From assembly GCA_039545275.1 (NCBI GenBank), contig BCHS01000006.1:186001-250000 (forward strand): DNA of 64,000 bases, in the 5' to 3' direction. Made by a program: the position numbers and the translations under genes. Below are positions 4,288-64,000 of this stretch, piece by piece. A model generated the notes under the pieces. The model had not been told where the DNA came from. It did no database searches and saw only the letters and a program-made list of their open reading frames with translations. This DNA comes from Pseudomicrostroma phylloplanum. Lineage: Eukaryota; Basidiomycota; Exobasidiomycetes; Microstromatales. Each line of letters begins with the position of its first letter. The stretch's first letter is position 1.

Positions 4288-7200
4288 TCACCAGCCCATA
4301 CCAACATTAACACTCATAGCACTCAAATCCACCTGTCTTCCACCTCCCCCAGCTCCACCCGCTCCGCTCCCACCACCAGCACTAGAAGGACCTCTCGAGT
4401 CAGGTCGCCCAGCAGCAGCCGCGGCGGCGCCTGTGGGCGTGCTGGCGCCACTGCGTCGCTGTGATTGGAGCATCTGGCGTACCGAGCTCGAGTCTAGAGC
4501 GGATACGGGTGCCGTAGGTGCTCTACCGCCTGCACCGGAGGTGCTGGTGCTAGTGGTGCTGGAGAGGGAGGCGTAGGAGGGAATATACCCAAACTCGTCG
4601 CGCGCTGCTGCCGCTGCTGCCTTGCTCGCCCCAGCGGTGGCAGAGGCAGAGGCAGGAGTGAAAGCGAGTGGCAGCAGAGCAGGATGTCCCACCCCTAGAC
4701 CGACTACTTTCCTCCAACTGTTCAGGCGCTGTAGCTCGCTTCTTCCTGTGCCCTCCCCTTCCCCTAGCTCTGCTCCATCTGCATCCACGTCCGCATCCGC
4801 TTCGCCCTCGCTCGCACTCCCCCCCTCTAGCACTCCAACAACCCTCTTCAACCAATCCAAATCCGCCTCGAGCTGTCTCCAGCCCGCATCACTGATCCGC
4901 TCGATCGGCGGGAGGGCAGGCAGGATGTGCGTGAGGAGGTGGCTGATCAGGTAGGAGAGGAGACGGGAGATGTAGGCTGGGAGGAGCGCTTCGGAGTGGG
5001 CTTGCGATTGCTGCTGTTGCTGAGAGGGGGTTGGCTGCATTGGAGCAGCTGTGGCACTGGCGGCGCTAGAGTCGTTGAGTGGTTCGGAAGAGGGGACGGC
5101 CTCTTCTGGCCCTGTGTCTCGCCGCGAGAAGGGAGGCGTGACTTCAGCAGGAGAGACACTCGTCTCGCCTGTGAGAGTGGGAGTGTCTCGACTTGGTACG
5201 GCTAGACCGCCGCTGAGGTTCAGCTCTTGTTGCGGGGAGATGATGGACCCCTGCGAGCGATGCCGTGTTGGCGAAGCCGAGTCTCTGCCCTGAGTCGAAG
5301 GAGTAGGCGGGAGGAAGGAAGAGCGTCTCCTATTGTCCTTGGTTGTAGTCGCCGTCTTCGAAGCGGATCCATTAGACTCCGACCTAGCAGGAGGAAGCAT
5401 AGAGCTCCTCCTCCTCTCCTTCTTCTCCCTCTTCTCCTTCTCAGCAGCGTCCTCCGCCGTAGCGCCCACCGTAACCCCTTCCGGACACTGCTCTTTGAGC
5501 AAGAGGAGCTCAACGCCCCACTTCCAACCAGCCTCGCCCATCCAGCTCTCCAGCTCTCGCACCAGGCCCAGCACACCTTCTCCCACAGTCTGCATCACCT
5601 CGGTCGGGCCGAGGGAAAAGCTGGGCATGGCCAGCTGGTACTCGTTTGAGACTTGGCCCGGGAGAGTGGAAGAAGTCCATGTTGGTAGTGAGGGATATTG
5701 AGCGAGGAGGGAGAGGACGGGGACGAGCGGAAGGACTAGCATTGAGTGCAGTAATGGGCTGAGAGCGGTCGGGAGTGATTGAGATAGACGAGGCAGTAGA
5801 GGTAGCAGCTGTGGCTGTACCAGGGTGCTGTGGGAGTGCAATGCAGATGCGCCATTGGCGATAGTCGAGTGGCGAGCAGCCGCCAGTGTCATGACCTGCT
5901 CACGCGTGGCCCTTTCGTGCTCGGACGAAGCGAGAGCGGACTCCAGCAGAACCACCATCTCGGCAGACGTCGGTACCGGCCCGTTGATACCAGATCCGTT
6001 GGCTCCTCTGAGCTTTGCCAATTTGTCCGGCAGACTCTGCTCCTTGACGCCAATAGCAGCGCCCGGAGAGAAAGTGAGAAGCAAACTTGCGCTCTCCCTC
6101 AGTCCCTCGACTAGGAGAGTCTGCAGGTCTTCTGCCTTCTTGAAGACCGTCCTCAGCCCAACCAGAGCAGTGACGATTCTTCCGAATGCACTCCATTCTC
6201 TACCCACGGGAGCATGGCTGTTGGGTCCGACCAAGCTTGACCAGGTCCGTCTGCAGCTCTCTTCCACCTCCCTCGCAGAGGCCTCGATGCTCGAGGAGAT
6301 GACCGCATCGATTGCGTTGAGCATACCTCGGGCGCCAAGTCCCCGTGTTAGCTCGAGACAGCGCGACAAGGCGTCCTCACTTGAGTCTGACAGGGCCGAG
6401 AAAGAGCGTTGCAACCTATCCAGAGTCGAAGGCAGCACCTCATCGCCTACTGATGCGTCGGAGGATTGATTTGGGCGGAGCAAGGAGAGAGCCTTGCTCT
6501 CACGAGACCAGCTAGAGTGGAACAGAGCCAGCTCAGATTCTGCGTACGTGTCCCATACAGGCAGAAGTGAGGAGTAGAGGACGTCTGTGAACTCAAACTC
6601 GACTACTGGCACCTGAGCTTGAGGATTGGAAGCACTGATCCCATTGACCTGTCCATCTATTCCTGCGACCGATATGCGACGATGTGAGGGCGGAAGTGCG
6701 GCCGATGGCCGCCTCGCTGAGGATCGTCTTCTTCCGAGTGGTGTCGCTTGCACGTCCAGATAGCTCTGACCACCACTGGCAGGCTCAGAGGACTTGACTA
6801 TTGGCGGTGAGGTCGCGGGAGCCTCAAAGGATGCTTGTGAGCTTGTCTTTCTCATTCCATGCCTATCTGGCTCTGGCGGTGGAGGAGCAGTAGCGGCAGC
6901 GAGCCGAGCCAGTAGCTTCTCCATCTCTCGTCCTCGCTCTCGTATTGTTCGTACTAGCCTCAAGAATTCATTGAGCCTCTCGCTTTTGTGATACTGCTCG
7001 ATGCTGGCTATCCGATCTTTCAGCGAGGGTTTCAGCATAGACAGAGTTGAGGAGATGAAGAGATCCAGGGCTTCGTGCTGGTTCGAAGGGTATAAGATAG
7101 GCACGTATATCCGCTCGGTAGCGAGGAGGTTGAGGAGGCTTGAGAAGAAAGAAGCGAGGTATACTGAGAGCGCTGTTGCGTTGGGAGATGCGGGAATGTT

Positions 7201-38738: not shown

Positions 38739-39233
38739 CTTGCTTTGAAGTGCTAAGCTGAAAGCTCGGAATGACTGAGGATGATGCGAGTACGTGAAGG
38801 ATCGATCGGGGTTGGCGAGTGATTGACTTCGAGGGACTTCGGAAGCTTTTGGCGCTCGCAGAAAGGGTGAGGACGATGTGCAATGGTATCTGCTCTGCTC
38901 TGCACTGCGCTATCCTTGTATTCCTTCGTCAGCTCAACTCGACAAGCTCTAGCAAATCAAAGCGATAGCGTAGCCAAAGGACGAGCAGCCTCTCCTCCCC
39001 TCCAAAACTACCAAATCCCCTCCCCCCTTCCTTTCCAATCTTCCAGAAAAATTGCTTCCGAAACCCCTCTTCTCATCAAGCTGAGACATGAGACATGCGT
39101 ACCGCCATCCGTTCCGTCCAGAGGCACTTCAGCCCAGTAGCAGCGCCCGTCCACACTTTTATGAGCGCCCTCATGTCTGATGTCTGGAGTCTTGAGTCTT
39201 GCTGAAGACGGGGGGGGGGGGGGGGCGGGGGGT

Positions 39234-39293
<60 letters not shown>

Positions 39294-50700: not shown

Positions 50701-51625
50701 GTCTCGGTCCTCGAGCGAAGCGGACGACCTCTCTGTCTATGAGGAAGAAGACTACGAAGGCGAAGGCGAAGACGGAGACGAGGAGTTCCACTCACGGTAT
50801 CTGTCCCCCTCCCCTCAAGCCTCTCCTCTCCTATCGCCTCGATCGCCAGGCTCGTCCAACTCGCGGGCATGGGACATCCTACGCTCCTCTCGCTCGCTTT
50901 CAAGCTCAGGAGCAGCCTCGCCCCTGCCAATGTCTACCTCTGCAAGCAGGTCCAGGTGGCACGAGCACACGAAAGTACAGACGATCCGCGTACCGAGGGA
51001 GTCTTGGTCACCTCAAGTCCTACCAGCTGCTAATGGCAGAGGCATGCATACCGCAGAAACGGGAGATGGTGGACAGGAAGAGGCCTGGCCGACGCTGCAG
51101 AGCGGATCGTACTCGTCTTCGCAGCAAAGCTTGTCGCCGCTTGCACAGGAGGAGAGCTTCAGGTTGGACGATGAAGTCGATCCAATGACGGCCTTCTCTG
51201 CTACAGGCAAGGGCAAGGGTAAAGCGGACAATGGCGAGGTCTCGTTGCCACCTTCGGAGCTGCCTCCGCCAATGTCACCCACCCCTCAACAAGCATCGCT
51301 CTTCCCTGGCCCACCAAGCACGCCTCTCTCCGCGCCACAGCCGCAACCCCATCCAGCCGTAGGCACACCGAGCGTACAAGGCGCATGGGCCAAGGGCACT
51401 CCAAGCTTCAAGAACGCCGCTGCTGCAGCTGCAGGCACAAACAGCCCGTCTCCTTGGAGCGCAAGAGGGGGCGGCGGAATCGCTTCGCCTGCTGCTGCTA
51501 CTGCTGGAGGGGGCGGATCTGCCCACCGCAATACTGCCGCGTCGAGCAGACCAGGTGATGACTTTGATGAGGATCTGAGATTTGCAATTGAGTTGAGCTT
51601 GGCGGAGGAGAGGTCCAGGGGATGA
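47781..51625 (+). CDS. UFO1: UFO1-type F-box / WD40 / ubiquitin-interacting-motif protein
   Basis: Exons 47781-48406 and 48490-51625 (83-nt intron, phase 2) give 1253 residues. An acidic N-terminus precedes an F-box at about residues 131-176 (LLPPETLTRILALLDPNHLV, then SLVCRKWATIA), the Skp1-binding part of SCF ubiquitin ligases. WD-type repeats follow (FVTGGADGTVRLWSPDR; IVAAGTTTGQVYLW; FVVGTIDGQLKAFDSLTGEP) and would bind the substrate. Three helical ubiquitin-interacting-motif-like segments come last: EEALEYAMMLSRQEAEEQ (about 869), RELQDALQQIALAEAEES (about 913) and EDLRFAIELSLAEERS at the C-terminus. F-box, WD40 and several UIMs together are the hallmark of yeast Ufo1, which degrades the Ho endonuclease and is itself unstable through its UIMs. 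The substrate here is unknown. Confidence 0.85.
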
Positions 51626-52915
51626 TGGTGTGGAGAAGAGCTAGAGTAGAGGATCGGGCGGATTTGTCTAGATGCTGTGTCTGTCATTGTATCCACCATT
51701 TGAACTCAGGCTCGGGTTCGGGCTAGGAATGTTCATCAAATTGCAACTCTATCTATCTATCTATCCAATCTTGTTGTGCCCCTGTCTTTCAATCTGTCTG
51801 TCTATGCTATGCACTGCATGATTTCACTCTGATCAGACTCAATCGTACAGCCCCTTTCCTCTTTGGGCCCCTAGACAACGCATGTCTCGCAGCCTCATCA
51901 CACCTGCAGCCCCGCCCAGCTAGGCAGGCCTCACGCCTGCGCCTGCGCCCGCGCCCGCGCCTGGAAAATTTGAGATGGCGCTTCCCGCGTCTCAGCTGCA
52001 CACCTCGCGCTTCCCGCTTCCCTCCTCCCGCCTGCCGCCTGCTGCCTTCCGCCTTGCGTCTCGCGCCTCCCGCCACAGGCCCCAAGCCCTAGACCTAGGT
52101 TTCGGAGCATCGAAGCAGTGCAGCTCTCTGAGACCGAGGAGGAGCGCTGATAGGCGAGTTGAATTTGTTATTAGTGCAAAGAGTGCAAAGAGTGCGAAAG
52201 TGTCGATAGGATTGGGGGGTCTTTGAGGGAGTTGAAGCAGAGGGAGTAGAGCTGATGGGAGCGGGGGGGAAGCAGCCTGTGAGTGACGGGAGGGGAGGGG
52301 AAAAGGTGGAGGTGGAAGTTCGGAGGCGGAAGAGACACGCGAGACTGCCGCGATGCCCGAGTTGCAGCCGCCCGTCCTGGCTGCAGGAGACCCATCTTCC
52401 TCCGGTCTTCACCACCACCAGGTCTAAGATCGAGCTCGATCACGGAGTCTTTCGCACAACGTAGCTCGCCCATCACACCTGTTGCGCTTCCGACAGTGGC
52501 TAAAGCTCGGGGCTGGGCTACACTACGATACGTCAGATGAGACTGAGAGAAATGGAGCTTGTTGAGCATAGCGCCATCACGGAAAGGGCTCGTGGAGGCT
52601 GAGCGAATCCTACTGTAGCTCGGCTAGCTTCCGCCTGGGCGAGGAGTCAGTCGATGCATCGTAGAGCGAGTCATAGGACGGGAGGAATGCTCCGTTGGGG
52701 TTGGTGCAGTGGGTGCATCGAGGTGCATCTTTGGGGAGACGGAAGTCAATCGCCGGGCTGAGCTACCTGCTATCGTCGCCGCCGCGTGGTCGACCCTATG
52801 ACTCCAGAGGGCTCTTCTCACCCAAAGTCATAGCCTCGACCTCCTTCCCTTCCTTCCTTTCCCTCCAGACACACTACATACACCAACATACACCAGCGCA
52901 CACCACCTTACCAAA
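51626..52915. other. 1.3-kb intergenic region at the edge of the array
   Basis: No recognised gene. It contains a CTAT microsatellite (51749-51765), a GCGCCCGCG-type tract (51936-51964) and CCCGCC-rich DNA to 52075. It separates the conserved genes from the tandem array. Confidence 0.5.
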
Positions 52916-53588
52916 ATGTCCGACCCAAATCGCATCGACGTCTCATTCTCATCCGAGGATCAGTGAGTCAACGAGCTAGCAGTCTCTTCGAAGGAGGCAA
53001 CGCTTGGCCTGCAACTGACCTGGAGCCCATCTTTCTCCCACTATCCCTACACCGCTACGAAGAGACATACCAATGGCAGAAGACGAGGTAGCCACCGCCG
53101 GAGAACCCTCAGCATCGACAGCACACCAAGCCCAAGCAACATCCACGGCAGCAGCAGCACCACACCAAGCCCCAACAACATCATCGGCAGCCACGACAGC
53201 AGCAGCACCACACCAAGCCCCAACAACATCATCGGCAGCCACGACAGCAGCAGCACACCAAGCCCAAGCAGCTTCTGGTTCAGCAGAGAGGCGAAGAGAG
53301 GAACCCGTACAGGAGGAAGAAGGCGTAAGGGGAGAGCAGGCTAGAGAGGGACATGAGATCGGAGGAGGAGGTCCAGCAAGGGTAGGAGAGGGTAGAGGCG
53401 CAGGAGAGGAAGGTCAGGCCAGAGCTCCTCGAACGGGCTCAAGGGGTCAGAGGGGAGGACCCAGCGACGAAGCAAGGGCGGCGGCGGCAGCTCGACGAAG
53501 TGGTAGTCCGCCTTTCGAGGTCAGAAGGAATGCCTACTTTGCCCGGAACAGGAGGCGTAGGATGAGGGGTGTCAAGAAGGAGAAGTGA
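52916..53588 (+). CDS. Tandem-array family member A
   Basis: Exons 52916-52962 and 53063-53588, phase-2 intron of 100 nt, give 190 residues; an internal ATG at 53073 would give 171. Exon 1 encodes MSDPNRIDVSFSSEDQ. Exon 2 starts MAEDEVATAGEP, continues with a 16-residue Ala/Thr/Pro repeat (two perfect copies, from a 48-bp DNA repeat at 53160-53255), then Glu/Gly/Arg-rich sequence with GSRGQRGGPS. It ends in the family tail RRNAYFARNRRRR. There is no signal peptide or membrane segment; the basic tail could be a nuclear or nucleic-acid-binding signal (inference). Exon 1, the intron and part of exon 2 are closely similar at the DNA level to copy B, so a recent duplication is likely. No database family is recognised. 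Confidence 0.6.
53160..53274 (+). repeat. 48-bp tandem coding repeat in array member A
   Basis: Two identical 48-bp units, 53160-53207 and 53208-53255, flanked by partial units on both sides. Each encodes 16 residues of Ala/Pro/His/Gln/Thr/Ser; being a multiple of three, it keeps the frame. Confidence 0.85.
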
Positions 53589-53671
53589 GGAGGTGGGTGG
53601 TAATGACGCTGAAGTTCTTTCGCTTTTAGCTTAGGAGATATCGTGTAACAGAGTGACAGAAGGCAGGCACC

Positions 53672-54097
53672 AATGATCTATTCAGTCGTATCTTGAGTGA
53701 GTCAACGAAACGTCGAAGGAGAAGCAGCATGGTCGAGTATCAGAGCTGACCCAGTGACTATCCGTCGCTTTTACACCAGCCCGCCCATCTCGACCCGAAT
53801 GACACAGGAGCAGACAGAGCAGTAGCTCCAGCACCAGCAACAGTACCACCAGTCCAGCCAGCAGCACGGTCAGCAGCACCACCAGCGGTACCGCCGCCGG
53901 GGCACCCAGTAGCATTAGACAATGGCGGATAGGCAGGAGGAGGACGAGGAGTAGGGGTAGTCCGGGAACAAGCACAGGTCAGAGGTGCAAGGGGACGAGG
54001 AAGAGGAAGAAGGGGTGGTGCCAATCTTCAAATCGGCGCTGCTGCTCGCTGGGCCGCCTACAGGCGAAGAAGGCAGAGCGGGTGGACGTGGACATGA
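53672..54097 (+). pseudogene. Tandem-array relic A2
   Basis: A donor-like GTGAGTCAACG at 53698, as in copy A, is followed by an acceptor at 53779 and an open Pro/Ala-rich frame (RAVAPAPATVPPVQPAARSA). A TAG at 53930-53932 interrupts it. After the TAG the same frame continues with RGARGRGRGRRGG and the family tail IGAAARWAAYRRRR, ending at 54097. One change from CAG to TAG would explain the stop. The upstream exon no longer reads into this frame. A decayed copy is the simplest reading. Confidence 0.5.
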
Positions 54098-54437
54098 CAA
54101 TCAGACTTCAATCAGACTTCATGACGCTGTCAGCAATGTGTGCGTGGTCGACTGAAGACGGACACCACCGATTCGTCAGGCGGATACGCCAAGTGCGTCA
54201 AGACTTCCCTTCCCTTCCGATAGGATTCTGTTCGACGTGGCTCGGGCACCTTGGCCATGTACATCTTGGTGAAGAGAAGGCATAGTCAGTCTCGACACTA
54301 GCACACGATCTACCTGCCTTCGTGCCCCCGAGCTGAACGGGTGGACGGACGAGTCGATTCGCGCTGGCTAGAGAAGCCACGGCTCTCTGGCCTCTATCCT
54401 TCCCGTCTTACGGTACAACTGCCTATTGATTGCGAGC
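54098..54437. other. Spacer within the array
   Basis: 340 bp between relics A2 and A3. A short direct repeat (CAATCAGACTTCA) occurs at 54098-54120. No gene seen. Confidence 0.4.
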
Positions 54438-55034
54438 ATGTCTCCCCCTCAACCTTCTGACAAAGTCTCACCATGAGGTCCTTGCCTTGCCAGGCCCGAG
54501 CCTCCACGCCCTTTCATGGACGCAGCGCTCCAATTTGCCACTCTCCGTATCGAGATCACCCACGCTATCGAGCTGGAGGAAGAGAAAGCAGGGGTGAAAG
54601 AGGTACTGAGCAAGAAGGATGAGGCAACCGAAGTTTTCGAGCGTGGAGGTACAGGAATCTGGGCAGTCTCCAGATCCATGATGCTTATCCTCACGATTCA
54701 AAGAGGAAAAAGCCAGAGAAGGGATTGCTGGATGGGAACGGTCAGACGCAAATATCCAGCTTCAGCGCAGTGTGCAACAGAGCAATTGTAGAGGTGCGCC
54801 AACGTTCTTTCCAGATGTGTGGCCCAGACAGCACCAAACGCTGATATTGAATTCGATGCCTGCCCTTCCAGAGAGGATTTGCCCGAAGCCGCCAGTGACG
54901 TCGATGGAAGGCCCAAGAAGGAAGACACTCGCTGCGCTGAGCTTCGCAGGGGCAAAGGCAAACTTCTCGACCACCGCGCGCAAGAAGCTGACGCGGCGTG
55001 GAATGCTCAGTCGCCTCTATGCTGTATCGCATAG
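54438..55034 (+). pseudogene. Tandem-array relic A3
   Basis: An ATG at 54438 starts MSPPQPSDKVSP, like copy E (MSPPRSPP), then meets TGA at 54474-54476. The same frame goes on with ARPEPPRPFMDAALQFATLR, which aligns with AEPRPLPLEEPVSLAALQFA of copy E. Further on, 54819-55034 in the same frame phase ends in a weak version of the tail (AQEADAAWNAQ). An ORF from the ATG at 54516 could still give a 91-residue peptide. Degenerate copy, low confidence on limits. Confidence 0.35.
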
Positions 55035-55308
55035 CGCAGACCTCGCCTCCTTCTCTCTTCTCTCTCATCCTCACTCCTCTCATCCTCATTCCTCCCCTCT
55101 GAATACCCGCATACTCTACTGTACATTACAATACGTCTCCACCTACATATGTATCCGTCGCGGACACCTCCAGCCCTCTCACCGCCGCCCTCTTCCCCTC
55201 GCTATCCTGCCGCTTGGCATGAGTCTACCGATCGGGCGTGCTGAGCTGACATCGACACTGCAAGGCGGGGCTCACATCCCAGTCTCCTTCGCCTACAAGC
55301 TGGACTCG

Positions 55309-56057
55309 ATGCAAGAGCCCCAATCGCATTGACGTCTCTTTTTCATCCGAAGATCAGTGAGTCAGCGACCTAGCAGTTCCTTCGAAAAGAGGCAAAGCTT
55401 GACATGTGACTGACCTGAAGCCCATCGTCCATTTCCCAACATGCCTACACCGCTACAAAGAGAGATGTCAATGACAGCAGCCGAGCCGGCCACCGCCGGA
55501 GAACCGTCACAGCCACCATCGCCGTGAGTCAATGAGCTAGTACTAGTTTTGTAAGAGACCAAGCTGCTCACCTCTCGGGTGCTCGGCTTGAGACTGACAC
55601 TGTCTTTTCACTTCACACCATTCGTTCTGTCTGGCACACCCTCAGCGTAGCTTCTCCGGCTGAAGCCCTGGCAGCTGACCTGCAAGAGCTAGCCTTCCGC
55701 CCTCAAGTTCACGATCAGAATGTCGTTCTTGCCGTCGGCGCCTTGCGCGAAGGCATAGCAGAGATAGGTCTCGAAGAACGCCCGGCCCAGGTGCAAGAAG
55801 GGCAAAAAGCGGATGCTGGAAGGGAGGCAGGAGTGGGAGAAGGGAGAGGCGAAGGAGAGGGAGGAGGAGAGGGAGAAGGGGAGATTGGGAGAGAGAAACG
55901 CAAAGGGTCGAGAGGTCAGAGAGGTGGGCCGAGCGTACACAAGCGGCAGAGCGGAGGAGGGAAACGGGAGAAAGGGGTAGGAGATAAGGCCAAAGGGACG
56001 GCGGCGTATCACGCAAACCGGAAGCGAAAGGCCAAGAAGGTCAACAAGGAGCAGTAA
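55309..56057 (+). CDS. Tandem-array family member B (exon 1 frameshifted)
   Basis: Exon 1 (55309-55356) matches copy A's exon 1 but has one extra C (GAGCCCCAAT against GACCCAAAT), so its ATG reads only MQEPQSH and stops. Exon 2 (55461-55523) and exon 3 (55646-56057) remain open and join at phase 2. From the ATG at 55465 they would give 156 residues, beginning MSMTAAEPATAGEPSQPPSP. Exon 3 carries a helical stretch (LAADLQELAFRPQVHDQNVV, then ALREGIAEIGLEERP), then Gly/Glu/Arg-rich sequence with GSRGQRGGPS, identical to copy A. The tail is GTAAYHANRKRK, with Lys replacing some Arg. Intron 2 shares a GTGCTCGGC-AGACTGAC block with copy F's intron. It is either a gene with a shortened start or an early pseudogene. 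Confidence 0.48.
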
Positions 56058-56109
56058 GGTGCTCTACGGCAATTGCAAGCACTACTGCACCAAGCACACG
56101 CAGCGCAAC

Positions 56110-56627
56110 ATGTCGACCGCTCCCTCACCAGATCATTCTCCTCCGCCCCGACGCATCCACCGTGCTGTCGTACCGCCTCTGACCGCCGAAGAGTTGCGGA
56201 GATTTGAAGCGGTTCTAGAAGAATATAGAGGCACGGTCCCTGAGGTTCGGGCAAGGCTCGACGAAGCTGGAGCAAGGCTGTCCAGTGACCGTCAACAGAG
56301 GCACCCTAGGTGAGTCATACAGAACAGAGGGCACACAGACAGAGTAGTGCTACCATCGAAGTGCCGCTGGACATTGACTCAGATCCGCCCGCTCGATACC
56401 CTTTCAGCCCTCAGACTCCTCCGCGCCCGGACGCAGGAGCTGGAGTAGAAGGACGAGAACAAGCAGGAGATCGGGCACAAGCAGGAGCAGGAGAACGAGC
56501 AGGAGTACACGCCCAAGCAGAAGTAGGCGCAGCGAGGGGAAGGCGAAGGGGCCAGACCAATGCGCAGGTAGGCCAGGATGCTCGCTGGGCCTTCTGCAGG
56601 CGACGAACGGAGAGACGAGGGCGATGA
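56110..56627 (+). CDS. Tandem-array family member C
   Basis: Exons 56110-56309 and 56408-56627, phase-2 intron of 98 nt (GTGAGT to CCCTTTCAG), give 139 residues. Exon 1: Pro/Ser-rich start, then a charged helix (PPLTAEELRRFEAVLEEYRG, then VPEVRARLDEAGARLSS). Exon 2: Gly/Ala/Glu/Arg-rich linker with GARGRRRGQT-type sequence and the tail AQVGQDARWAFCRRR. The start is the first ATG of the frame, 52 bp after the stop of copy B. No known domain. Its tail is the closest match to copy F (AQVG-DAR), although F lies 3.5 kb away. Confidence 0.65.
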
Positions 56628-57135
56628 GCTGGAGTGGCATGGAGGGGACGTAATCACTAGACCTCATACTGTAGCATCGACGCATGGAGTGAGACTAATC
56701 GAATGGAGCCTGATACCATCATCGGCCGAAGAGCGATACCACCGAGGGCTGAAGAAGGCAACCGTTGCACGTCAATCGGAGGAACCAGATACGTCTCAAT
56801 GCTTCACTCTCTGAGGTGGACCGTGGCTCTTTCGTCAGATGATGGACTAGTCAAATGTGGGAGAACTGCTCGGTCAGTCACATGCCTCAGACGCATCTCA
56901 AGTTCTACCCATGATTCATTCAATCCTCCTGATCGCTTCTTCGCTCGGGTGGTTCGGGTGAATGCATCCTGTGCGTCGTCACAGGAAGGCAGTAGGATGC
57001 TGAACCTCTCTCAGGGCGGACCGCGCGTTCCTGGCGGCCATCGCGGCCAGCCGTGCCGCGGGAGGAGGAAGACCATCCGTGCTGAGCAGCGAAGGCTTCT
57101 GACATTCTTCCTTGTTTCACCAGACAGATACCAAG
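56628..57135. other. Spacer between array members C and D
   Basis: 508 bp. A frame from 56703 (146 codons) runs to just short of copy D but has no family features. I treat it as chance. Confidence 0.4.
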
Positions 57136-57773
57136 ATGTCTGATCATCCTCGTTCTCCCGCCTGCGACTCAGGCGCTTCACGTCCTGCGCTACCTCAACC
57201 TCCACCCCATGCGCTCGCTCAGCGCCCACGCCAAGCACCTCAACTGTCTCTTGCCGCTGTCCTGACTGGATATAGGCGCATCTATCAGCAGGGTCTGGCA
57301 GAGATCCGAGGACGTCAAGTAATCTGGTCTCCCCGGAGAAGAGAGGAGTTGGCTGCGAGACCTGATCGGTGAGCAATGGAGCGAGCGATGGCATTGAACA
57401 GGATGCTTCAACCAGTCTGTTCCGTGACTGGCATGAGATTGACGCAGCTGTCCTCCTTCCATCACACCTCAGGAGAGCCCCGCAGAGATCCATGGGCCCT
57501 GCATCTGCCGCTCTCGTTCCCGTTCAAGCAGGAGTGCCACAAGGTGGATTTGAAGAGGGGCAGGCTCAAGAAGGAGGGGGCAGACGAGGTGGAGGAGGTG
57601 GACCGGGAGGAGCCGGACAGGGAGTAGGTGGACAGGGAGGGGGCCCGCAGGGAGAAGGCCCCGAGGCAGGCAAGCAGAGACCAAGAGGCGAGACGAGCGC
57701 TGAGATTGGGAGGAATGCCAGATTCGCGAGACTGCGAAGGCTGAAGAGGGGTAGAGGAGGTGGCAACAGATAA
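57136..57773 (+). CDS. Tandem-array family member D
   Basis: Exons 57136-57368 and 57473-57773, phase-2 intron of 104 nt, give 177 residues. Exon 1: MSDHPRSPACDSG, a Pro-rich stretch, then a helix (LSLAAVLTGYRRIYQQGLAE) and basic IWSPRRREELAAR. Exon 2 is dominated by Gly/Glu/Gln repeats (a GGRRGGGGGPGGAG-type run) and ends with the tail AEIGRNARFARLRRLKRG. The MSD start recalls copy A. No recognised domain, signal peptide or membrane segment. The Gly-rich middle suggests disorder. Confidence 0.65.
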
Positions 57774-58502
57774 TACAAGCGCCACGATGGCAGCCGCAAC
57801 ACTCCCCCTCTGAGCCTTTAACAAACGTTGTGACGGACGATCAGTAAGCCTTGGCAGTAGAGTGGAAAGCAACACTTGGTAAGCAGCGTCTATGGTGAGT
57901 TCTATTACTGTCATCGGACTTGATCCCTCTCTTCTCCAACTTCAATCGATCTTGTCCGTAATGGTGTACAGTAGAAAGACTGCCAGGAAGAGCAGGTAGA
58001 GGCGACAGTCGTAGTCTCAGAGGGCCAGAAAGGGGATGTCGCACAGGACGAGGCAGAGGCAGCAGCGGCATGGCTCGACAGTAGCCACTCCCTCGCTGCC
58101 CAAACGGCTTTTGTCTCAAGGTGAAAGAGGCGCTGGAGGGGAAATTGACGTGGCCAAAGACGATGCTCAAACTTCCAGCTTCGAAGACCGAGTATGACAG
58201 CAAGTGGAGGAAGGCAGCGAGGATCTGTCTCGGTGGCGTACCTCAATCGAATCACCTGCTCGTCCTTCGTGTCGATCGATTCCTATCCGACGTGCTTTGG
58301 TCTGCGAGTCGAGTGCGTCGTGGAAGTGGGGCAGGTGGTGAGAGTCACCGCTCTGATCTTACGGCACAGGTGAAGCCGGCCCGGCTGCCGCGCCCCACCG
58401 CCGACGCGGCGTAGTGGTCTCAGTGAAATCCTGCCCTCCAAATGGCTCGACTCTCTCACCCTCCTTCCTTTCGCTCCAGGCGACTCCCTACGCAGTTTGA
58501 CC
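57774..58502 (+). pseudogene. Possible array relic D2 within the D-E spacer
   Basis: At 57894 an ATG/GTGAGT donor is followed by an acceptor at 57971. Behind it a frame reads GRAGRGDSRSLRGPERG and RTGRGRGSSG to a stop at 58083. A neighbouring frame continues with LAAQTAFVSR, weakly like the tail of copy E. This looks like a shifted, decayed copy. The rest of the spacer to the start of copy E shows nothing. Confidence 0.22.
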
Positions 58503-59173
58503 ATGTCTCCACCTCGCTCTCCCCCCGACGAAGCTCAACCACCTGGTCCCCCTATTGCCGACGCGGAGCCTCGCCCCCTTCCCCTCGAAGAGCCAGTCTC
58601 ACTTGCTGCTCTCCAATTCGCCATCGCGAGCGCTGTACAAGAAGCCCTTGCACGCCTTCAAGGAGTTAGACTTCCGCCGCCTCTTCACAATGAACCAACG
58701 CCAACTCCAAAGGCCAGAGAGTGAGTGATTAAGCGAGCATCGCATTTGGGAAGGTGGCCTGGCCGTCATCCCACTCTATGCTTGGACAGGCACTGATCGT
58801 CGCCCATCTTCTCGTTCGACGTCGCCGCAGGCTTGAGCCCGCTATCGGCCCCACCACAGGACACTACGGACCAGGCGTTCAGCCAGCAGAAGAGCCAGTA
58901 CCTGCTCATCGACCGTCTGTAGCAGCACGAGGACGACAACAAGCAGGAATAGAAGGAGGACAACGAGGGCGAGGCGCCGTCGGAGAGCCAGGACCTGCAG
59001 GACTAGAGGACTTCAGAGCGGACAGGGGCAGGGGAGTCATCCAGAGGGGAAGGGCAGGGGCAAGAGGAGGCGCAAGAGGGACAGGTAGGAACGATGCAAA
59101 TCGGCGTGATGATGCCGTTACAGTCGCCTACCTGGCCTTCCTGAGGCGACGAAGACAGAGGAGGAACCATTGA
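58503..59173 (+). CDS. Tandem-array family member E
   Basis: Exons 58503-58720 and 58831-59173, phase-2 intron of 110 nt, give 186 residues. Exon 1: MSPPRSPPDEAQPPGPPI, then an amphipathic helix (LAALQFAIASAVQEALARLQ). Exon 2: Pro-rich start (LEPAIGPTTGHYGPGVQP), a Gly/Arg stretch (GRAGARGGARGTGRN) and the tail VTVAYLAFLRRRRQRRNH. The tail keeps the aromatic and Arg positions but lacks the Gly-x-Asp-Ala start seen in C and F. The helix of exon 1 is recognisably shared with relic A3, linking the two ends of the array. Confidence 0.65.
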
Positions 59174-59926
59174 GCGGGTTATCATTGTGACTCTGAATTC
59201 AGGCAGGCAGTGAAAGAGGACAACGGCAATGACTATGACCATTCAACAGTTACAAGCCAGAGTGAGACAGAACGACTGCTATTTTCCTCCTTCTCTTTCC
59301 AGCTTCCGACGTCAGCATCATGGTCAGGATCCAATGATTGTCCCCTCATACTTCGTTGCGCTCCATCGGCGCCGTACAGTAGGAGCCTGGCCTGAGAGAA
59401 GATGCTGCTTTTCTCGACCGGAACAATGAGACCCACTGTCATCTCAACAAGACCAAGGACAGGCAATGAATCTCGGTCCATACTCAAGTCGGCGAGATTG
59501 CCTGTTCTGCCATGACGCGCAGGCGCCAATAACAGAAGGAAAAGCGATGAGCAGTAGAAGAAGCACGACAATTGATGACCTTTGAATGACAGAACAGAGT
59601 GAGGGTGGCCGACTGAAGGCAAACAACATCGACTCTGCAGCCGCGGCTGGGTTGGCTTCAGTCGCAATTCTGCCTTGGTCCCACCTTGTACTGTTCGGGG
59701 GGGTGCATCAAGCGCGTAGTCAGGGAGGAGGGGCAGCAGTGGAAGGGAAGGTCATCGTCTCCGCGCTGAGCGGAGGGAGCGAGCCGCGTGCCCCGTGCCC
59801 CGCCCCTACCTGCCGACTAGAAAAGCGTGGCCTTTCCCATCCTACCTTCTCAGACAACCAACCATCGCACCAACCATCACACCAACCATCACACCAACGA
59901 TCACACCACCTATCACACACCGTACC
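59174..59926. other. Spacer upstream of array member F with 12-bp repeats
   Basis: 753 bp, no gene recognised. The last 67 bases hold the 12-bp repeat listed separately. Confidence 0.4.
59860..59918 (+). repeat. 12-bp tandem repeat in the leader of array member F
   Basis: Five tandem units of AACCATCACACC with a few substitutions, ending 8 bp before the ATG at 59927. They probably lie in the 5' UTR or core promoter. Confidence 0.8.
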
Positions 59927-60633
59927 ATGCCTTTCCCACACTCTTCGCCCACTCCTCAACCTCCTTCAAGCCCCGCGCCATCCCTTTCACCACCTCCTCC
60001 CCCCTCCTCGCCCACTCCTTTGCCTCCTCGCTGGTCACCACCTCCTCCCCCCTTCAGAGTCCCTGCTCACCTCCAAGCAGACTTTGAGGAGAGCCGTCGA
60101 AGGGTCGATCCGATGATGGAGGGTGCCAACGTGCCACACTGGTACGGTGCGGACCGGGAAACCTTCTTGGCCATGTTGTGAGTAGCTCGGCCAGAAGTCC
60201 CCGCAGACTAGGGTCTGATCGGGCTCTCCAGTGCTCGGCATTAGACTGACCAAGATCTTGTTTACCGTACTCTTGCTACTTTAGCCCCCTTCCCGGCTAC
60301 GCACAGGCACCTCAAGCAGGGGCAGGACAAGCGCAAGGAGGCGAAGGACACCGAGCTGGAGATGACGAGGTAGAAGGCCAACAAGAAGGGCAGGAAGCTG
60401 GAGGTGATGGAGTCGGAGGGGAAGGAGAAGCTGAGCGCGAGCGAGGCAGAAGGGAAGAAGGACAAGGACCAGCGCGAGGAGGGAGGGCAGGGGGCCCCAA
60501 TGTAGGAGACCGTCGCGGAGGAGGAGCAGTAAGGCGCGGAAGAGGGAGAGGAAGGCAGGAAGGGAATGCCCAAGTCGGCAGAGATGCTCGTTTCGCGTTT
60601 AGGAGGCGAAGAATGCAGAGAGGCAGGGGGTGA
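59927..60633 (+). CDS. Tandem-array family member F
   Basis: Exons 59927-60177 and 60285-60633, phase-2 intron of 107 nt, give 199 residues. Exon 1: about 48 residues that are mostly Pro and Ser, then a helical, charged segment (VPAHLQADFEESRRRVDPMM) and NVPHWYGADRETFLAM. Exon 2: PLPGYAQAPQ, a Gly/Gln/Glu linker, Arg/Gly-rich RRGRGRGRQEG and the tail AQVGRDARFAFRRRR. The best-preserved tail in the array. The intron shares a GTGCTCGGC-AGACTGAC block with intron 2 of copy B. No known domain. Confidence 0.65.
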
Positions 60634-60936
60634 GGGGAAGAGCAAAATGTTACGACAATTCAACTTGCAGTAAATCGAGGATACAGCATGCGAAGGAAGG
60701 GGATCACTGGCACCACCGACTCTGAAATGGCATACTGTACGCTGTAATCACCTGCGCTGCTACTCGTGCCTTTGCTTCCACTCTGACATCTTCGATTGGA
60801 TGTACTACCCCGAGTTCTCTATGAGAAGCATTGGGTGCAGGAGCAGTGTCGAGGCAGATCACAGAACGTGGTAATGAATGTATTGAGGGTATCGCAAAAG
60901 ATGAGAGGAGGCGAAGGTTACGGCAGAGGGACAAGC
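60634..60936. other. Spacer between the array and the coiled-coil genes
   Basis: 303 bp between convergent stops. Nothing recognised. Confidence 0.4.
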
Positions 60937-61455
60937 TTAGGGGGCAGCATTGGAGAGGCGAGGCTGGACAGATCGTCCTTCCTCAAGGGCTTCATCGGCC
61001 CGAGGCTTGCCGGTGTCCTTGGCAGATGGCTCTTGCTGGCGGTCTTGAGGAGATTGAGCGTCGGGGCTGCGGAGTCGATATTGAGGTCTTCGTTGTTAGT
61101 CACTGATCCAACGGTTGCCTTTGTTTCAGGGATGCACTGACCTTGCTTTGGAGGCTAGGCTTGCCATCACCGTCGCAAGAGCCACCCGCGCCTCATCTCT
61201 CTGACCTTGAGCCTTCGCCATCTCCTTCTGGTACACCTCTGCCTCGATGCGGGCCTCCAGCAGCTCGTCTTGCATCTCTTCCAATTGCGACTGAGATGCT
61301 TTGACTTGCGCTCGGAGGTCTGCTGCCTCAGCCTCTCGCCATTCCTCGGTGACTGCATGATCCCTCATCACAGACTCCTGGTAGTGAACCCTGCGCATCA
61401 GCCACAGATTCTGTCTGGACAGCCGCTCCAGCTCGTCGTACAATTGGTCTGCCAT
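60937..61455 (-). CDS. Coiled-coil protein 1 of a pair
   Basis: Exons 61142-61455 and 60937-61066 on the - strand, phase-2 intron of 75 nt (donor GTCAGT, branch-like CTAAC, acceptor CCGCAG), give 147 residues. Exon 1 (MADQLYDELERLSRQNLWLM onward) is one continuous, charged helix with heptad-like spacing to about residue 100, including LRAQVKASQSQLEEMQDELL. Exon 2 is short, Gln/Pro/Arg-rich and disordered (SPDAQSPQDRQQEPSAK). Its layout and intron position mirror the gene at 63244-63914. The acceptor was chosen by phase and branch-point distance; an alternative exon 2 frame cannot be excluded. No named family. Confidence 0.52.
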
Positions 61456-63243
61456 GATACTGTTTGTCAGTGAGACAACGAGTCAGCACTCGTTGCGGAA
61501 TACCGGAGCTCACGTTGGAGCACCAGGCACAGAGCAGGGTACAGTAATGGATGAACTCACTTTTGCTAGAGGGTTGCAAGGGCGACACTTAGTGAAAGAG
61601 CAGTTGCTGTGGTGATTGTGTGGAGAGCGAGAAGCGATGGTCCAGTGCAATGTGAGGCTGAGAGGAAGAATGCTCAGCGGGAGTGGAAAGCTCACACCTG
61701 CACGCGCGTCATCGAACGATGTTGTTCGGACCCGGGGTCCACAATGGCGCATGTGCTACTGCAGCTGGTCCAGCGGCGCTTATTACTCGTCTCCTCGCGC
61801 TGATGCATATCGAGCTCACAGGTAGGCAGAGGAGCTCTCCGCTAATGGGAAAGCATCAGAAAAGATTTCTCCAGCTCAAGGAGCCCCTCACTGCATTATG
61901 TCTTGCCGCAGTCCTCCTGCCCTTCAAGTATTGAAAAGTGACGGCCGAAGAAAGCAGGCCCGAGTCCTGTACCGTCGGTGCGAGCTCAGCCACTCGCAGT
62001 GTCATCAAGGCTACATGATATGTTTCTGCAAGCGCCGTGTCTGCAAGCGCCGTGTCACTTGCTGATCATGACAAATGCGATGCCACATACATAACCATTG
62101 TCATCGACAATCGACATCAACGCGTCCAAGTCAAAAGGTGCTCGCACGAACAGTAGAGCAGAACAATGACAGCTCTTTGCGGCAGCATGGAGACAGATTG
62201 ACCTTCTCTTCGACATCTTCGAATGCTTTCGGCCACCGCATTGTCATAGCAGCTCACCTTGGCCCGAACTGTCTCGGTCGTTGAGAAGGCGGCAGCAGAG
62301 CATTGATGAACGCTGCCCCCGAGCTTGAAGATCAAACGAAGGTGAAGGTTAAAATGACAGCTAGACAAAGGCATCATCAACTTTGTAGTCCCGTGAGCCA
62401 GGCTCATCACCCCAGCTATTCCACTTCGGTCGCTGTTCTGTGTGATCTGAATGAAGCGGCCACATCGAGCGTAGCGGCCGCTGAGTCACCTTCGCAAGAG
62501 CTGGCTGCTCTTGCCTGCGGCAGAGCACGACTGCTGACCAAGCAAAGCGTGAGTCTATTGGCCCTCTACTTCCTCTGCCTCAAAACAGCCATGTCCACAC
62601 CATGCACATACTATGTCTAGGCCAGTCTCACCTGAGTCTCCGCCGCATCGATTGCCGAACACCCTCCTCGAGTGGACGTCGTCTGAGCCGATGATAGAGG
62701 CACTTACCCAGACTACTGGCGAGACATGCAGAGAGAGCAGCGGGACTAGACTGCATCCGGCTGGCATTCTTTGCACGCAGGCAAGCGAGGACAGTCTTTG
62801 AGTTACCGGTGAGTTTAGGCGGCCAGGTGCTCCAGCCTACCCTGAGCCAGATATCGAGCAAAGCCGAGCATTCCAAGTCTACTCCTCCGCGAGACCAAAG
62901 ACACGATAGAGAAGACAAAGCAATGGATATTCAAGTGGCAGAAACAACAAGAGAAGCTAAACAAGAGCGGGAATGGAAAGAGGAGAAGAGATGCAGAAGG
63001 CGAAGCCAGACGGGCATTCGAGGGGTAACGAATTGGACAGAAGAGAAGAGAGCGAGAGGGACGACGACCACGAGTGAAGAGGGAACAGGAAGGTAGAGCA
63101 AGGGTCTGGGCCGTCCTTGAAATCGGTGGCAGAGAAGACCATGCAGCAGTCGAAGACGAAAGAGGCGGAAGAGAAGAAGTTGAGTAGAAGAGAAGATGCT
63201 GGCGTACACCTCGCTCTGCTGTTCTCATGCGCGTCGCTAGAGG
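61456..63243. other. 1.8-kb spacer between the two coiled-coil genes
   Basis: No recognised gene. On the + strand an ATG frame 62306-62548 ends at a good donor and is followed by an acceptor at 62620, but joining them gives a stop after four codons. A Lys/Arg/Glu-rich + frame (62809-63096) is reminiscent of the array's C-terminal exons but lacks the tail. Neither is annotated as a gene. Confidence 0.4.
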
Positions 63244-63914
63244 TCACATCGTAGATGGCACTGCGTCGGAAGCTGTACATTCCTTGCGACGGGAGGGCTT
63301 CTTTCGGGGCCCAGAAGTGGGGCGGACGGAGTCGGCAACGTCAGAAAGCTCTTGAGGCTGTTCTTCTGCTTTTCGCTTGCCTTTCCGATCGGGATGAGCA
63401 ATGAGAGTGTCGCCCGCCGGCGCCGACTCTGCCTCCGATGAAGGCTTCTCCTGAACACTGTGAGTTTTGATCGCATTACATGAGTGGCGTTGTCAGTGCT
63501 GAAGCCCTTTCCGAACTCTCCCCTGTTTGGGATGACTGACCTTTGAGGCGAGCGAGGACCTTGCACGTCCAGTAGACCAGCCTTTTGGTCCCGCTCGCTC
63601 TGAAGCGCCATTTGAGTCTCTCGGAGGATCACTTGAAGCTGGACCCTCTCTTTGCGGAGCTCTTCGATCTGTTCTCCAGCCTCTTCCTGCTCTTTCTCTC
63701 GCTCGAGTCGGAGCTGTTCTATCTCTTCGTACGCCTCTCTAAGCTCATCTTCTAGCTGAACTTGCCGCTGTTTGAGCCTCTTCTCTCTGACGACGGCCAT
63801 CTCGATTCTGACTTGCCTTGCATTGGTGAGGTGTGTCATCCAAATCGCTTCTCGTTGTACTCGTACGACTTCTTCCTGTAGCTGTTCCCTGGTGGGCTGG
63901 CTGTCATCTTCCAT
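63244..63914 (-). CDS. Coiled-coil protein 2 of a pair
   Basis: Exons 63541-63914 and 63244-63457 on the - strand, phase-2 intron of 83 nt (donor GTCAGT, acceptor ACTCACAG), give 195 residues. Exon 1 starts MEDDSQPTREQLQEEVVRVQ and forms a long heptad-type coiled coil (QVQLEDELREAYEEIEQLRL, then EREKEQEEAGEQIEELRKER) to about residue 110. Exon 2 is disordered and basic (HPDRKGKRKAEEQPQEL, then GPRKKPSRRKE), which could be a nuclear localisation signal. The plan (single-helix exon, phase-2 intron with the rarer GTCAGT donor, short polar exon) is shared with the gene at 60937-61455. I recognise no family. Confidence 0.58.
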
Positions 63915-64000
63915 TGTGGTCTTGTGGCTGCAAGGAAGTCAGAAAGGTAGCGTGTCAGCGTAGTGCACCACTAGCCTAGGTTCTCAGTGTATCGGCGAGC

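Follow-up and report, generated by a model that had tools for sequence, protein, structure and literature searches.

A tandem island of intron-bearing orphan genes, apparently in birth-and-death evolution, in Pseudomicrostroma phylloplanum

The subject of this study is a head-to-tail array of small, intron-bearing genes in the basidiomycete Pseudomicrostroma phylloplanum, located in a 64,000-nucleotide (nt) stretch of DNA, here termed the window, that corresponds to C6:186001-250000 (contig C6, BCHS01000006.1, one of the 20 contigs of a 17.08 Mb genome, comprises 973,801 bases). Within the window the array consists of five two-exon genes (A, D, E, F and G), a frame-shifted copy (B) and relics, and is enclosed by an island of approximately 30 kb that is poor in long reading frames and contains a second orphan family, of coiled-coil genes. 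We regard the whole as a genuine island of orphan genes that evolves by birth and death. The fuller interpretation, in which the island is lineage-specific and its proteins are nuclear, disordered and RNA- or DNA-binding, is offered tentatively, its probability being judged a little short of even. Copies D, E, F and G are those labelled C, D, E and F in a preliminary description of the window, the labels of A and B being unchanged.

Gene models and relics

Gene models were derived by enumeration of splice sites, which gave each of A, D, E, F and G, all on the plus strand, a single model of two exons whose donor is GTGAGT or GTGAGC. Copy A (52916..53588; intron 52963-53062) is predicted to encode 190 amino acids, D (56110..56627; intron 56310-56407) 139, E (57136..57773; intron 57369-57472) 177, F (58503..59173; intron 58721-58830), which has a divergent tail, 186, and G (59927..60633; intron 60178-60284) 199. 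The single intron is in phase 2 in all five modelled genes, as the preliminary description had it for D, E, F and G, and the extent of the array in the window, from the start of A at 52916 to the stop of G at 60633, agrees exactly with the coordinates given there. Three of its other statements require correction: A does not possess an extra short first exon, having two exons of which the first is simply short; the array runs past 60633 to a further copy, H, outside the window at C6:251353-252103; and the tail described as shared is weak in some copies (see below). Alternative open acceptors exist for E (four listed, including one that gives a 47-nt intron) and G (two listed), for which the YAG sites CCTCAG and CTTTAG were picked, and the acceptor of A (ACGAAG) is weak. 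Among eight introns, namely those of the five modelled genes, the two of B and that of H, the donor is GTGAGT in seven and GTGAGC in one, and a YTGAY branch-like motif is present in all eight.

Copy B (55324..56057, plus strand) has an exon-1-like sequence at 55324-55356 that does not share the frame of the local ATG, followed by intron 1 (55357-55460), exon 2 (55461-55523), intron 2 (55524-55645) and exon 3 (55646-56057); intron 2 and exon 3 are open, and exon 3 is matched by exon 2 of A. In the alignment the ATG of B is placed as in A, and a one-base difference in length puts it out of frame. The first exons of A and B are identical at 29 of 33 nt, and all four differences lie at third codon positions and are silent in the frame of A. 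In H, exon 2 holds an in-frame stop. Of the seven copies with a first exon, five (A, D, E, F and G) retain open frames, and B and H do not. Tandem repeats were also observed within two copies: an in-frame 48-nt (16-codon) repeat in the coding part of A (53143-53256; 2.4 copies, 98% alike), and a 39-nt repeat in exon 2 of H (L002:1773-1855) that coincides with the site of the in-frame stop.

Copy C (53978..54100, plus strand) is clearly a relic, since its tail (53978-54088) is preceded by a same-frame stop and no exon 1 was found; repeat finding groups 70 nt of C with D and G (repeat family D2), at 70% and 63% identity to C. A second relic, Z (59450..59644, plus strand; repeat D10), is probable: it resembles the 3′ flank of C (none of 500 shuffles as good; score 21 vs a maximum of 14 for 100 control pieces), and the tail of Z itself gives a weak score. 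A third candidate, an exon-1-like stretch at 54516, is not supported, shuffles being as good in 134 of 1000 cases against F and 13 of 1000 against D. The earlier count of at least five intact-looking genes, a copy B with a damaged first exon and two to three relics stands, except for the third relic, and the array proves more extensive than first described.

Relatedness of the copies

The view that the copies form a real tandem family, with divergent N-termini and a preserved tail, was also that of the preliminary description, and is supported by homology of tails, introns and exons. Five copies only (C, D, E, G and H) have a clear arginine-rich tail, which is weak in the remaining three (A, B and F). 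For the tail pairs C-D, C-G, D-G, D-H, E-G and G-H, none of 300 shuffles was as good in any pair; weaker pairs are F-G (2 of 300) and F-D (18 of 300). In genome-wide searches the tail of G alone retrieved H as its sole match (expectation value, E, 0.047), exon 1 of H retrieved G (E 3.3e-6) and exon 2 of A retrieved exon 3 of B (E 1.3e-4). A tail profile was also made, with C, D, E, G and H as its input; its E-values for these copies (4e-14 for C, similar for the others) are uninformative for that reason, and the first matches after its own members, Z among them, have E 0.04-0.1. First exons other than those of G and H cannot be aligned safely, with shuffles as good, of 300, numbering 8 for E-F, 18 for D-F, 13 for F-G, 25 for F-H, 68 for D-E and 212 for E-G. 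Matches outside the island are weak: D to contigs C1 (E 0.0073, with internal stops), C13 (0.009) and C7 (0.088), exon 2 of A to C12, C3 and C20 (0.14-0.17), E to C8 (0.028) and C11 (2.8), cc2 to C14 (0.054) and cc4 to C6:513765 (0.44), the last two queries being coiled-coil genes. The tail was not seen by eye in the translations of the C1, C13 and C7 matches, the three that were read. The genome searches score best candidates only, and more distant copies could escape them.

Introns were compared after trimming of splice sites, in 28 pairs vs 336 comparisons with 42 intron-like control sequences. Scores of z≥2.9 were obtained in 12 of 28 pairs vs 14 of 336 controls, and of z≥4 in 6 of 28 vs 2 of 336, with a control maximum of 4.3, indicating that the introns are homologous. 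The highest-scoring pairs are A-B1 (14.7), G-H (6.9), E-F (5.5), B1-B2 (4.7), A-B2 (4.2) and A-F (4.0), where B1 and B2 denote the two introns of B, the second of which is thus homologous to the first. These scores link A, B, E, F, G and H through their introns, and bring in D via E only (z 3.7). No conserved RNA structure was found in the introns (consensus energy -0.17 kcal/mol).

These comparisons bear directly on the suggestion that the array represents chance open frames in GC-rich DNA. Low-complexity composition and uninformative codon usage would fit such an origin, but the intron homology relative to controls, the conserved tail with its excess of third-position differences (see below), the homology of G and H in exon 1 and that of the exons of A and B all contradict it. 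It is considered extremely unlikely, and refuted as far as sequence can refute it.

Divergence and selection

Intron and exon identities were compared in three paralogue pairs. For G/H the values are 0.71 (intron), 0.66 (exon 1) and 0.59 (tail); for A/B, 0.83, 0.88 and 0.79, respectively; and for cc1/cc3, members of the coiled-coil family, 0.71 for the intron and 0.67 and 0.64 for the exons. Introns are about as conserved as exons in all three pairs, and the proteins therefore change about as fast as the introns. The data would fit unusually rapid change of the proteins as well as introns that are slowed or undergo conversion.

In the ungapped 31-codon tail of copies C, D, E, G and H, the pooled proportion of synonymous sites that differ (pS) is 0.73 and that of non-synonymous sites (pN) 0.36, from 10 non-independent pairs, with 150, 102 and 174 differences at codon positions 1, 2 and 3; the pair G-C gives a pN of 0.40 and a pS of 0.38. 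The pooled values point to purifying selection, and thus to a coding tail under constraint. DNA-guided, whole-exon ratios of non-synonymous to synonymous divergence (dN/dS) are 0.70 for exon 1 of G and H and, for exon 2, 0.61 (G-H), 0.62 (D-G), 1.15 (D-H) and 0.39 (E-G). With synonymous sites close to saturation, neither relaxation nor positive selection on individual sites can be judged. Protein-guided dN/dS was dropped as biased, because pN fell well below pS even in a pair with no true homology, exon 1 of E and G, for which 212 of 300 shuffles did as well. The preliminary description had seen in the fast N-termini and preserved tail the pattern of genes under conflict or diversifying selection; neither the tail nor the five whole-exon pairs make a case for diversifying selection, and conflict is without direct support.

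The same data are relevant to a plainer account, in which the copies are young or decaying orphan genes with few functional demands on them, which duplication maintains for a time and whose proteins drift almost freely. The equal divergence of exons and introns in all three pairs, relics C and Z, the in-frame stop in H and the uninformative codon usage are all in keeping with this. However, tail pN is half of pS over five copies, the A/B differences in exon 1 are all silent and at third positions, and most copies with an exon 1 stay open, such that relaxed orphans are regarded as an unlikely explanation, albeit one to be taken seriously.

The island and its coiled-coil genes

The borders of the island were examined by the coverage of frames of at least 250 amino acids in 10-kb bins of contig C6. 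Coverage is 0.16 (236-246 kb), 0.17 (246-256 kb) and 0.02 (256-266 kb) in the island; on its left, between 126 and 236 kb, 11 bins give 0.40-0.82, and on its right, between 266 and 356 kb, nine bins give 0.35-0.75. The left border is a WD40/UIM gene, the frame of which ends at 237,622, and the right border a gene on the minus strand (267,452-269,134) with a weak RNase III domain (E 2e-5, just below the Pfam cut-off). The genes in the first 51.6 kb of the window are ordinary eukaryotic ones and encode COG7, Bax1-I, poly(A) polymerase, a TFIIIC subunit, an M3 peptidase, an MFS transporter, a kinase and the WD40/UIM protein; an 83-nt G run of 95% purity lies at 39210-39292. No tRNAs were found in the window, and Rfam gave no match in 51600-64000. 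Tandem repeats in the island comprise 81 nt x 3.9, 13 nt x 5.8 and 11 nt x 8.5 (L002:4700-5000; 5671-5745; 6469-6561).

Two coiled-coil genes lie on the minus strand of the window: cc1 (60937..61455), which is convergent with G and has a 75-nt intron, and cc2 (63244..63914), which has an 83-nt intron and a basic C-terminus, KGKRKAEE. A third, cc3 (C6:252287-252955), faces H and is 42% identical to cc1 (E 7.7e-13). A GTCAGT donor, phase 2 and an intron of 75-83 nt are common to all three, and cc2 and cc3 both end in KGKRKAxE; a protein search with cc1 does not retrieve cc2. The distance from cc1 to G is 303 nt and that from cc3 to H 183 nt, and because cc1 and cc3 face G and H, the gene pair was probably duplicated as a unit. 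A further coiled-coil gene, at C6:264138 (L003:4138-5044), has an exon duplicated in tandem (76% over 409 nt), adjoins a frame for a very acidic protein, and has a 146-nt piece at 82% on another contig (C10:630576-630722).

That piece, the repeats of the island and the RG-rich, basic nature of the array proteins, which would suit Gag-like proteins, might suggest remnants of transposable elements or viruses. Conversely, Pfam revealed no transposase, reverse transcriptase or other mobile domain in the island frames scanned (9, 7 of 8, 10 and 2 by batch, not all small frames being included), the A-H family was found nowhere else in the genome, and viral contigs yielded no relative. Such an origin is accordingly rated highly improbable.

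The island might also hold genes in conflict within the fungus, i.e. killer meiotic drivers or self/non-self recognition genes, in which the arginine-rich and coiled-coil proteins would act jointly. The tandem birth-and-death cluster with pseudogenes, the fast proteins, the probable duplication of a facing pair as a unit and the absence of a secretion signal are consistent with this, as is the presence on the same contig, 109 kb from H, of the sole STE3 pheromone-receptor locus found in the genome (C6:361200-362291); homeodomain matches lie on C1 and C10, and the placing of receptor and homeodomain genes on separate contigs fits a basidiomycete. However, coverage is ordinary in every one of the 20 bins that were searched from 126 to 356 kb to either side of the island, which therefore does not extend to STE3; the bin of STE3 itself (356-366 kb) is also low, at 0.25. 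Membership of the mating-type locus was rejected on these grounds, and the M3 peptidase was dropped as a possible mitochondrial-peptidase neighbour that would mark a mating locus, resembling oligopeptidase A and thimet oligopeptidase in PDB.

Comparison with known drivers lends the conflict explanation little weight. The wtf proteins of Schizosaccharomyces have membrane segments, whereas the array proteins lack them by hydropathy. Like the array, the wtf family comprises many diverged copies, pseudogenes and fast proteins (PMC9562144); its genes have several exons, their intron 1 carries both the FLEX motif and the poison promoter, and the FLEX motif is not universal outside S. pombe. The FLEX motif GTAAACAAACA has no match with up to one mismatch in the window. 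The tdk killer meiotic drivers are likewise fast-evolving and non-secreted with a conserved C-terminal part, according to PMC12930445, but the array tail is a short arginine-rich segment, and the tdk C-terminal domain (IPR013902 / PF08593) gave no Pfam match in the island proteins scanned, which do not include every small frame. Since dN/dS is, in addition, mostly below 1, the conflict reading is unsupported and deemed improbable.

Properties and possible role of the array proteins

The five modelled proteins (139-199 amino acids) have 0-1 cysteines each and, by a crude hydropathy measure, no hydrophobic start (highest 9-residue value 0.93). They contain 3-8 RG dipeptides, and few RGG triplets (0-2), per protein, G and R make up 0.35-0.52 of the last 100 residues, and the net charge over the last 40 residues is +8 to +13 in these five and in B exon 3. 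A weak structural model of G exon 1 is disordered to residue 46, with helices at 47-64 and 71-82 (mean predicted local distance difference test score 73.7). The preliminary description recognised no known family, and the searches agree: no match above cut-off was obtained in a Pfam scan of the array proteins, nothing at E 1 in a PDB search with a profile of the five, and no recognised family in NCBIfam, for which only G and cc1 of the two families were scanned. Pfam matches below cut-off, such as those of A with New_glue (E 0.011) and of cc1 with Filament (E 0.009), were left aside.

Smut effectors are typically encoded by small, unrecognised, species-specific genes that change fast and lie clustered in tandem, as in cluster 19A of Ustilago maydis (PMC4081774), and the array could on that account be viewed as a secreted effector cluster. 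The array proteins are, however, without a secretion signal by hydropathy, cysteine-poor, RG-rich and encoded by intron-bearing genes, and this possibility is considered highly unlikely. There is also a likeness to RNA-binding proteins of the RG/RGG-rich and arginine-rich-motif kinds, which share a Gly/Arg-rich stretch and a basic, helical-looking tail with the array proteins; the latter differ in having no RNA-binding domain recognised by Pfam, and no sequence relationship was found.

What the sequence itself shows is the gene family with its introns and tail, the lack of any clear signal for secretion, a second family and two facing pairs, G/cc1 and H/cc3. Under the tentative interpretation favoured here, the island would grow and decay through local duplication, and the A-H proteins would be small, non-secreted and mostly disordered, with a Pro-rich start, a short helical segment and, beyond the intron, Gly/Arg/Glu-rich sequence and then the arginine-rich basic tail. 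From composition and tail we infer that tail and RG-rich part may direct import into the nucleus and binding of RNA or DNA. Choice of the partner could fall to the helical part near the N-terminus, which changes fast, and the facing pairs suggest the neighbouring coiled-coil family, with its lysine/arginine-rich ends, as a candidate partner. Several points weigh against this interpretation. RG-rich composition is by itself no proof of nucleic-acid binding, and the helix model of G exon 1 has a predicted template modelling score of 0.28 and derives from five sequences. The low tail pN is set against a pS near saturation, and the DNA-guided pair D-H stands above 1; tail sharing is weak for A, B and F, and the other copies were missed by genome-wide searches in which D, E or F was the only query. 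Finally, codon usage favours the proposed frame in 4 of 10 island exons or genes, vs 8 of 10 reference genes, which were themselves the training set.

A bolder extension would make the facing arginine-rich nuclear and coiled-coil proteins units of a two-component recognition or drive system, in which the N-terminal helix of the former and the coil of the latter co-vary and fit is confined to matched pairs, while units multiply and die in tandem on the pheromone-receptor chromosome; this is considered very unlikely.

Fast, unrecognised and non-secreted genes clustered in tandem are familiar as a kind, although most such clusters have no described mechanism. The present cluster is compact, has intact copies beside relics, and has a second family that appears to have been duplicated with it; its introns trace paralogy where the proteins no longer can. 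If the pairing is functional, the island would offer two orphan families whose co-evolution could be tested; if it is not, the island would be a clean orphan-gene nursery, in which exons diverge at the pace of introns.

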